A DNA stretch of 64,000 nt from Haloplanus natans DSM 17983 (GTDB lineage Archaea > Halobacteriota > Halobacteria > Halobacteriales > Haloferacaceae). Under the pieces are notes generated by a model that was not told the DNA's origin, searched no databases, and was given only the letters and a program-made list of their open reading frames with translations. Below, piece after piece: positions 15,163 through 44,414 of the stretch. The stretch covers positions 2,464,938 to 2,528,937 of the forward strand of contig NZ_KE386573.1 of the NCBI RefSeq assembly GCF_000427685.1. Direction: 5' to 3'. A program made the position numbers and the translations under genes. Each line of letters starts with the position of its first letter. The stretch's first letter is position 1.

Positions 15163-15247
15163 GCGAGGGTGGCCGAGCCAGGCCAAAGGCGGCGGGCTTA
15201 AGACCCGCTCTCGTAGGAGTTCGGGGGTTCGAATCCCCTCCCTCGCA
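15163..15247 (+). tRNA. tRNA-Leu (anticodon UAA)
   Basis: The 85-nt sequence folds as a class II tRNA. The acceptor is gcgaggg/ccctcgc with discriminator A. The anticodon stem gcggg/cccgc closes a seven-base loop with TAA at loop positions 3-5. There is a variable arm and a T-arm with TTCGAAT loop. The CCA end is not encoded. Its 3' 21 bases are repeated three more times downstream (see the array), indicating that this tRNA gene has served as an integration site. Confidence 0.95.
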
Positions 15248-15533
15248 CTGCCGCTCGAACGAAGGTGACGAGCGTGCAGTGTGCCGAAGGATTCGAATCA
15301 GGGAGTGAAACGACCGTGGTTCGAATCCCCTCCCTCGCACTGCCGCTCGAACGAAGGTGACGAGCGTGTAGTGTGCCGAAGGATTCGAATCAGGGAGTGA
15401 AACGACCGTGGTTCGAATCCCCTCCCTCGCATCGAGTGAGGCGCCCACGGGCGCCGAGCGAGTGCGTCGGGATTCGCAGCCCGACGAGACGAGCGAAGCG
15501 AGTCTCGGCCCGGTTCGAATCCCCTCCCTCGCA
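15227..15533 (+). repeat. Tandem array of tRNA-Leu 3'-end copies (attachment-site scars)
   Basis: The last 21 bases of the tRNA gene (15227-15247) recur exactly at 15319-15339, 15411-15431 and 15513-15533, spaced 92, 92 and 102 bp. The first two intervals (15248-15339 and 15340-15431) are a tandem duplication differing at one base. The third interval has unrelated sequence containing small inverted repeats. Duplication of a tRNA 3' end is the classical footprint of tyrosine-recombinase integration, where the end is the att core. Repeated copies without an element between them suggest successive integrations and deletions, or repeat amplification. Confidence 0.8.
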
Positions 15534-15582
15534 TCGAGTACACGACGAGCCCCCGGCTCGGGAGTCGTAAACGGAAAGCGAA

Positions 15583-42671: not shown

Positions 42672-44012
42672 GTGACGACGGGTGTCATCAACGGAGTAAC
42701 GGTCTCCCACCAGCGGGCGACCGTCGACGAAATCGAGTCGGCCGGCGCGGCGGACGAGGAGACGGCCGTCCGCGACCTGCTGACTCGCGAGGGGGTCGAC
42801 GAGGCGTTCGCCCTCCAGACCTGTAACCGGGCGGAGGCATACGTCGTCACGGAGTCGGTCGCCGACGGGCGGGCAGCGCTCGCCGACTTCGCCCCCGAGG
42901 TTCGGGACGGGGCGGTCCACGAGATGGATCACGAGGCCAGCCTCCGCCATCTGATGTGTGTCGCGGCGGGCCTCGAATCACTCGTCCTCGGCGAGGATCA
43001 GATCATCGGCCAGTTCCGCCGGGCGTTCGAGACGGCGCGGGGCGCCGGCGGCGTCGGCGGCGTCCTCGACCCGGCGCTAACGAAGGCGCTGCACGTCGGC
43101 GAGCGCGCACGGACGGAGACGGGGATCAACGAGGGCGTGGTGTCGCTGGGGAGCGCCGCGGTCGAACTCGCCGACCAGGAGTGTGACCTGGCGGACGCGA
43201 CGGCACTCGTCGTCGGCGCGGGCGAGATGGGACGCATCGCCGCGCAGGCGTTCGACGACACGGGCGTCTCGACGCTCGTCGTCGCCAACCGGACGGTTCC
43301 CCACGCCACCCATCTCGCGGACGAGGTGGAGACGACGGCGCGTGGCGTTCCCCTCGACGTCATCCCCGCCGCCGCCGAACGGGCGGACGTGCTCGTCACG
43401 GCCACCAACAGTCCCGATCCGATCGTCGACCGGACGACACTCGCCGACGCCGGGCGGACGCTCGTCATCGACCTCGCTCAGCCCCGGGATGTCGATCCGA
43501 GAGTGGCCGACCTCGACGGGGTCGACACCTACGACATCGACTCGCTGGAGGCCATCACCGACCGGACGCGGGCCCAACGGCGCGACGCGGCCGACGCGGT
43601 CGAACGGATGATCGACGAGGAACTCGACCGGCTACTCGACTCGTTCAAGCGCCGGCAGGCCGACACGGCCATCAGCGCGATGTACGAGAGCGCCGAGATG
43701 GTCAAGGAACGGGAACTCCGGACGGCCATCTCCCGGCTGGAGTCACAGGGCGAGTTGACCGACGAACAGCGGGAGACGGTGGCGTCGCTGGCCGACGCGC
43801 TCGTCGGGCAGTTGCTCGCGGCGCCGACCAAGAGCCTCCGCGACGCCGCCGCGGAGGACGACTGGACGACGATTCAGACCGCGCTCGGTCTGTTCGACCC
43901 CGAGTTCGGCGGCGAGAAGTCGGCGCCGCCGACGGCCGAACGACCCCGCGAGGCGCCCGACGACGCCGACGGCATCCCACAGCACGTCCTCGACAAACTC
44001 GGCGACGAGTAA
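42672..44012 (+). CDS. hemA: Glutamyl-tRNA reductase
   Basis: A 446-residue enzyme with GTG start. The catalytic cysteine is C51 in FALQTCNRAEAYVV, the substrate domain continues with LMCVAAGLESLVLGEDQIIGQFRRAFETA, and the NADPH domain has LVVGAGEMGRIAAQAF and VVANRT. The C-terminal dimerisation helices (ITDRTRAQRRDAADAVERMIDEELDRLL) complete the V-shaped fold. It makes glutamate-1-semialdehyde for haem and cobalamin synthesis. A haloarchaeal tail of about 45 residues follows. Its stop codon is the first edge of an 82-bp palindrome. Confidence 0.95.
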   Translation: MTTGVINGVTVSHQRATVDEIESAGAADEETAVRDLLTREGVDEAFALQTCNRAEAYVVTESVADGRAALADFAPEVRDGAVHEMDHEASLRHLMCVAAGLESLVLGEDQIIGQFRRAFETARGAGGVGGVLDPALTKALHVGERARTETGINEGVVSLGSAAVELADQECDLADATALVVGAGEMGRIAAQAFDDTGVSTLVVANRTVPHATHLADEVETTARGVPLDVIPAAAERADVLVTATNSPDPIVDRTTLADAGRTLVIDLAQPRDVDPRVADLDGVDTYDIDSLEAITDRTRAQRRDAADAVERMIDEELDRLLDSFKRRQADTAISAMYESAEMVKERELRTAISRLESQGELTDEQRETVASLADALVGQLLAAPTKSLRDAAAEDDWTTIQTALGLFDPEFGGEKSAPPTAERPREAPDDADGIPQHVLDKLGDE

Positions 44013-44093
44013 TACGGTTTAGTGTAACTGTTTACCGGTGGGTCGCCAGGACTGGTCGGCGACCCACCGGTAATGACTTACACTAAACCGTAT
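44012..44093. repeat. 82-bp near-perfect palindrome (dispersed repeat, intact copy)
   Basis: Outer arms 44012-44027 and 44078-44093 are perfectly complementary (16 bp), as are inner arms 44034-44047 and 44058-44071 (14 bp). Between them, three of six positions also pair. The central loop is 10 bases (44048-44057). It starts on the last base of the hemA stop codon, and its right arm supplies the TATA-like CCGTATAAGG for the next gene. A diverged copy lies at 1657-1714. It could be a MITE-like or REP-like element serving as a bidirectional terminator. Confidence 0.88.
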
Positions 44094-44135
44094 AAGGCCC
44101 CAACCGTTATTCTCCGGGCGACCGATCGTTCGGGC

Positions 44136-44414
44136 ATGCCCAACAGACTCGACGACGACGAGATCGAGCGACAGCTTCCCGACGGCTGGGAGCGCGACGG
44201 CGACGAAATCGTCCGTGTCTACCAGTTCGACGACTACCTCGACGGCGTCACCTTCGCCACCCGCGTCGGCGAAGTCGCCGACGAGGAGTTCCACCACCCC
44301 GAAATCCGCATCCGCTACGACGAGGTCGAAGTCCGGCTGACGAGCCACGAAGCGGGCGGGATCACCGATACGGACGTGCGGCTGGCGAACCTGTTCGACG
44401 ACGAACGCCGATGA
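44136..44414 (+). CDS. 4a-hydroxytetrahydrobiopterin dehydratase (pterin-carbinolamine dehydratase)
   Basis: A 92-residue PCD/DCoH-family protein. Residues LPDGWERDGDEIVRVYQFDDYLDGVTFATRVGEVADEEFHHPEIRIRYDEVEVRLTSHEAGGITDTDVRLA contain the active-site histidine pair (HHP) and the later H in TSHEAGG. It dehydrates 4a-hydroxy-tetrahydropterins or may act in molybdopterin-related pterin recycling. ATG 44136 starts about 40 bases after a TATA-like box formed by the right arm of the upstream palindrome. The stop overlaps the next start by 4 bp. Confidence 0.88.
   Translation: MPNRLDDDEIERQLPDGWERDGDEIVRVYQFDDYLDGVTFATRVGEVADEEFHHPEIRIRYDEVEVRLTSHEAGGITDTDVRLANLFDDERR

Follow-up and report, generated by a model that had tools for sequence, protein, structure and literature searches.

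An apparently undescribed 80-bp palindromic mobile element family of haloarchaea that often duplicates host stop codons

Introduction

Bacterial MITEs of the ERIC, YPAL, RUP and Correia/NEMIS type make a 2-bp TA duplication, and the target of IS1031 and of the Tourist MITEs is TNA or TWA. For the enterobacterial ones among these MITEs the 2-bp TA duplication is described in PMC2759123, and the ends of GTAG REPs often provide a TAG stop codon (PMC3733652). Among the haloarchaea, Haloquadratum walsbyi holds three classes of such sequences, namely MITEs, SMRs and PATEs (PMC3119063).

The locus considered here lies in a window of 64,000 nucleotides of Haloplanus natans DSM 17983 (contig NZ_KE386573.1, positions 2,464,938 to 2,528,937), in which a preliminary description had pointed to a palindrome behind hemA, with no haloarchaeal family of this sequence known to its author. 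The open-access literature searched likewise contained no description of the family, and the term "stop codon" is absent from a review of prokaryotic MITEs. The 80-bp family is, provisionally, an apparently undescribed class of mobile element, carried by about a quarter of the sampled haloarchaeal genomes. We read it as a non-autonomous, MITE-like palindromic transposable element, moved in trans and inserting at C-TNA, with a probability of about 0.87.

The element behind hemA

The host gene hit by the insertion is hemA, which encodes glutamyl-tRNA reductase (42672-44012, plus strand; TIGR01035, 322.9 bits). The palindrome reported at 44012-44093 is present as described on direct reading of the sequence, and a repeat scan of the window gives arms of 36 nt each (44012-44047 and 44058-44093), 92% complementary and 10 nt apart. 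The outermost base on either side, however, belongs to a target duplication, and the element proper comprises the 80 bp at 44013-44092 (plus strand), supported by repeat scan, folding and family HMM, with TACGGTTTAGTGTAAC as its left and CTTACACTAAACCGTA as its right end. On either side stands one copy of a 3-bp target duplication, TAA. The left TAA (44010-44012, plus strand) is the hemA stop codon, as seen from the end of the ORF and from empty sites in congeners; the right TAA (44093-44095, plus strand) is given by the sequence, by copies aligned with their flanks and by the same empty sites.

The hemA copy folds into 16 pairs, a symmetric internal loop of 4 nt, a further 16 pairs and a loop of 10 nt. 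According to alignment, folding and pair counts, the outer arms (44013-44027, pairing with 44078-44092) carry an invariant TA and an invariant TGTAA with eight covarying bases between them. Alignment and folding place next a conserved, symmetric internal loop, where CTGT (44028-44031) faces TGAC (44074-44077), the first C of the left side being invariant and opposite another invariant C. Folding then gives the inner arms (44032-44047 with partner 44058-44073) and the terminal loop of 10 nt (44048-44057). The 10-base loop of the preliminary description is thereby retained, and the perfect inner arm measures 16 bp, not 14. As RNA the structure reaches -56.8 kcal/mol, against -23.3 +/- 3.4 for shuffled sequences (z -9.9), and as DNA its z is -10.5. 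The copy scores 86.7 bits with the family HMM. The sole Rfam match, mir-4850, was rejected as a chance hairpin match (30.3 bits against a cut-off of 93).

The second copy, announced 42 kb away, was borne out: the inverted match of 1645-1714 with 44024-44093 (70 nt, 81%) exceeds all others in the window in length. This copy is a decayed member of the family at 1646-1716 on the minus strand, as judged from sequence, inverted match, ORF and family HMM. It shows how the element ages. About 9 bp are missing from its right arm; its right target duplication is TGA (1717-1719), while the left counterpart, CGA (1643-1645), has probably mutated from TGA; and ORF 971-1648 stops at the TAG formed by the first three bases of the element. 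This decayed window copy is the only one where the element's own TAG serves as stop. Insertion of elements starting with TAG in itself makes tandem stops (TGA-TAG).

Two other features of the window were recorded. Between about 58000 and 64000 the GC content falls from about 69% to about 51%, as a low-GC island of roughly 105 kb begins (contig C7, 2.523-2.628 Mb); it is probably acquired DNA, and no element copies were found in it. At 15226-15539 there are 92-bp tandem repeats with more copies of GGTTCGAATCCCCTCCCTCGCA; by their sequence they resemble repeated tRNA-gene 3' ends, and serial integration or duplication of a tRNA end is possible.

Copy number, target duplication and empty sites

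A BLAST search of the own genome returned 69 matches, in which both-strand matches to one copy are counted twice; the best after the query itself is 99% identical over 82 bases, with an E value of 1e-35. The 22-bp arm has 137 matches in this genome, and its reversed control has none. The genome, four 400-kb stretches of which were analysed as sequence, holds on the order of 100 copies, with an element length of 77-80 bp, and the family is present in 10 of 11 Haloplanus congeners. The proposed dispersed palindromic element, which has conserved ends, is found both in the genome and in its relatives. Two pairs of copies at separate loci show full identity (100%) over 80 bp. Of 90 full-length copies, 36 have a neighbour that matches in at least 76 of 80 bases; such near-identity at different loci indicates that the spread is recent.

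When the copies are aligned with their flanks, the element opens with TAC or TAG and closes with GTA or CTA. The three bases just outside it agree between the two sides and follow the form TNA (TGA, TCA, TAA, TTA). Matching TNA on both sides was observed in 55 of 62 distinct copies, and in 76 of 107 in a wider Haloplanus set. The target-site duplications that the preliminary description had asked about are accompanied by precise empty sites in relatives. At hemA, congeners have GAG-TAA/TGA/TAG followed by the same flank without the element, and H. ruber too has hemA with its stop codon and no element there. Most of 14 further loci, compared with orthologues in two congeners, likewise have a stop codon at the same place and no element there. 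A clean case reads GAGGAC-TGA-[80 bp]-TGA-gcgccacggggg here and GAGGAC-TGA-gcggaacggggg in one congener (G005), the gene looking by eye like V-ATPase subunit I. At another locus (L004) the insertion is common to one relative and absent from the other, and at a third (L003) the relatives carry an apparent decayed half, by which the site may be an old insertion.

The family is thus short, non-coding and multicopy, its terminal inverted repeats are 15-bp outer arms with conserved ends (invariant TA and TGTAA), and it has both a 3-bp TNA duplication and empty sites, all as in MITEs. That two unrelated hairpin terminators merely resemble each other by chance is refuted by about 100 copies with common ends and target duplications; no point is left in favour of this explanation, whose probability is practically nil.

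Placement at stop codons

The preliminary description had both copies beginning at or within 9 bases of a stop codon, and the link proved to be closer than that, the duplication usually being the stop codon itself. Since any TNA reads as a stop on one of the two strands, the test was for an in-frame stop of a real gene, coding stops being called from the codon usage of the ORF ending at each duplication. In Haloplanus, 59 of 76 duplications (78%) lie on coding stops, or 64 with a softer cut-off, compared with 478 of 9000 random TNA sites (about 5%). In many cases the insertion point is precisely a stop codon, which becomes duplicated, and the protein is unchanged. Independently deposited annotation is in agreement: in Haloarcula hispanica pHH400, locus base 1500 is the last of an M48 protease CDS, with the element following directly at 1501-1578; annotated CDSs also end exactly at the element on plasmids of Halomicrobium urmianum and Halomicrobium sp. 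LC1Hm, and further copies in such records sit between genes. The element shows no preferred orientation with respect to the gene (32 same, 27 opposite).

Targeted stop codons, compared with other stop codons, give the consensus S-GAC-TGA-R, with C at position -1 in 83% against 30%, and G at -3 in 78% against 45%. This preference bears on an explanation which disputes stop-codon targeting, not mobility: the bias would result from a preference for CTGA or GACTGA together with purifying loss of insertions inside genes, stops as such being irrelevant. We give it slightly better than even odds. The share of non-coding sites expected at stops climbs from 34% for TNA to 43% for CTGA and 60% for GACTGA, with a motif-weighted estimate of about 39%, and one genome outside Haloplanus (G129) has only 7 of 28 copies (25%) at stops. 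The association with stops differs by lineage, another genome (G358) having 20 of 32 (63%), for about 5% at random; this variation also counts against the main reading. The observed shares of 78%, 82% and 79% nevertheless exceed the expectations for TNA, CTGA and GACTGA (p = 1e-14, 2e-9 and 0.04, respectively), and the control, with its over-inclusive ORF definition, is conservative. Moreover, TNA sites 1-100 bp past stops are almost free of copies: by distance to the nearest coding stop, 59 copies lie at 0, 3 at 1-30 bp and 4 at 31-100 bp, for 0.65, 0.81 and 1.89 available TNA sites per gene, respectively. Motif preference and loss of genic insertions hold as the explanation of much of the bias, and an extra preference or selection beyond the motif is likely but not proven. 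That the integration complex is guided to genuine stops by more than a DNA motif, for example by termination or by the transcript 3' end, we consider unlikely; if there were such guidance, haloarchaea would own safe-site transposable elements, whose insertions leave proteins unchanged.

Promoter, terminator and possible benefit to the host

The downstream host gene (44136-44414, plus strand; ATG in the region of 44136-44138) belongs to the pterin-4a-carbinolamine dehydratase family (PF01329). Its TATA box had been attributed to the hemA copy of the element. At the position expected for the TATA box stands the promoter-like CCCCAACCGTTATTC (about 44099-44113), which is not part of the element and is retained by congeners that have none; being host sequence, it shows that the element does not supply the promoter.

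As for termination, the sequence following the hairpin, TAAGGCCCC, contains no T-tract such as an intrinsic terminator has. This absence weighs against the idea that copies are retained because a hairpin behind the stop codon helps the host gene, through formation of the transcript 3' end or protection of the mRNA, as do the random orientation and the fact that the same genes in congeners are mostly without a copy and hence not dependent on one. The placement at gene ends, the very stable hairpin and the compensatory changes that keep it paired would all suit such a benefit, but a need for both ends to fit one transposase would likewise produce covariation, and retention for the sake of the host seems unlikely.

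Distribution and anatomy of the family

The family signature is TNA-[TA-N8-TGTAAC ... CTTACA-N8-TA]-TNA. A search pattern derived as TGATA-N8-TGTAAS-N36..64-STTACA-N8-TATGA, which detects perfect TGA/TCA cases only, was found in 99 of 392 genomes of the order and in 32 of its 95 genera, with no match for the reversed control and a maximum of 53 copies in one genome; named hosts include Haloarcula, Halomicrobium, Natribaculum, Natronomonas, Halomontanus and Haloplanus. Sampling across the phylum gave 17 positive genomes, all of them within the order, and about 310 other genomes of the phylum gave no match. No copy was present in the phage records and viral contigs examined; matches to the end patterns in viral contigs were dismissed as chance, none having both arms.

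An alignment of 35 sequences spanning several genera has TA, TGTAAC, CTT.C and TA as its invariant letters. The eight bases between TA and TGTAA vary among subfamilies with the pairing kept: the outer stem has 170 double-change cells against 65 in shuffles, and its covariation score is 0.39, which none of 500 shuffles reaches, against 0.15; sliding the partner by 1-3 columns abolishes the pairing. Each of the 30 copies examined from outside Haloplanus has an orientation that puts GTAAC at one end and GTAAG at the other, so the two ends are distinguishable.

Several other forms were observed. Diverged subfamilies in the own genome (TAGGG.., TACTGCCGGC.., 78-100 bp; for instance C7:2361720-2361797, C7:2172-2271 and C7:137526-137603) have the same TNA duplications. 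Nested copies, with one element inserted at a TNA of another element of different sequence, occur in the own genome (C7:200709-200869, L186) and in G129 (C1 16788-16947; L309 6788-6947). Two own copies 6 kb apart (C7:2252888 and 2258971; L016 and L015) have identical flanks, which places the element within a duplicated segment. One copy (L305; G129 C1:417869) has arms from two subfamilies, and copies in L228 and L236 measure 70 bp instead of 78, the loop block being missing; their sequences suggest recombination or deletion within the family.

The mobilising enzyme

The TNA duplication, the distinguishable ends, the random orientation, the nesting and the empty sites together suggest DNA transposition by a trans-acting enzyme of DDE type. 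Most likely this would be a transposase of the IS5/PIF-Harbinger kind making 3-bp TNA duplications. It may recognise TA-N8-TGTAAC at one end and, at the other, the complement with CTTAC, perhaps in cruciform form. The unit of 77-80 bp would be placed into C-TNA, with sGACTGAr preferred, and the TNA duplicated. In GC-rich haloarchaea, acidic proteins often end in Asp (GAC), and the target motif would coincide with the gene end GAC-TGA; insertion there would duplicate the stop, spare the protein and put a long hairpin in the 3'UTR, at a presumably near-neutral cost to the host.

Such a target choice, which spares the host, would amount to damage-free insertion occurring naturally. The hairpins added to many 3'UTRs matter for the reading of haloarchaeal transcript ends, and the copies are markers for strain typing.

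Scans for paired ends over about 2 Mb revealed no autonomous element with matching ends, nor was one seen among the ends listed for the own genome or for G129 and G307; in G307, ends are paired at element length. Since no autonomous element was found, the enzyme class comes from the duplication, and an IS5/IS1031- or PIF/Harbinger-like enzyme is our guess from the length and letters of the 3-bp TNA. To our knowledge, the TA-N8-TGTAA ends are unlike those of known IS5 (IS1031 group) or PIF/Harbinger elements. Two candidates for larger elements were discarded. In one, of 1.49 kb (1491 bp; G129, L304 9054-10550), an IS4-family element with a 10-bp duplication CTTTACGAAC has split a family copy, which in this form mimics an autonomous element; the other, in the own genome, consisted of two unpaired half-ends 62.8 kb apart, which are decayed halves. 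The young spread without an autonomous copy in G307 recalls the case of a single-copy, host-encoded transposase.

Such a transposase might also be of the Y1 (RAYT) type, reading the hairpin of a REP-like element as single-stranded DNA. REPs mobilised by Y1 (HUH) transposases leave, as far as we know, no target duplication; REP-like is for this reason the less apt half of the "MITE- or REP-like" label of the preliminary description, of which the non-autonomous, MITE-like half stands. The conserved hairpin and internal loop and the lack of an autonomous copy with shared ends are in keeping with a RAYT, and bacterial REPs near stop codons are known (PMC3733652). A constant 3-bp target duplication with empty sites is, however, not a Y1 product, and between neighbouring copies no transposase was recognisable by eye among ordinary-looking host genes, which makes this origin very improbable.

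Comparison with known systems

The MITE-like element described here shares a 3-bp target duplication with PIF/Harbinger elements (PMC2213677) and differs from these and from the IS5 family (IS1031 group) in that no linked transposase was found here. The MITEs, SMRs and PATEs of Haloquadratum walsbyi are similarly haloarchaeal, short and non-coding, with inverted terminal repeats and dozens of copies (PMC3119063). One SMR, HqIRS41, is also 80 bp long, and the enzyme mobilising SMRs is not known either (PMC3119063). SMRs, however, leave their target unduplicated and use other mobile elements as insertion sites (PMC3119063), whereas the present family has a 3-bp duplication, most of its copies being at host stops and nested cases few. 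PATEs differ in being without terminal inverted repeats, and no stop-codon targeting has been reported for any of the three classes, the comparison being with their published descriptions (PMC3119063).

ERIC, YPAL, RUP and Correia/NEMIS are alike in being palindromic, with a stable stem-loop, TA at the ends and many copies beside genes; they are bacterial, however, and have a 2-bp duplication, and the sources consulted describe no duplication of a stop codon for them. Finally, the REPs of the GTAG and CGTC families are also small dispersed palindromes near gene ends, but they measure 20-40 bp and bring the stop from their own sequence (PMC3733652), whereas here it is the stop codon of the target that is duplicated, as 3 bp.
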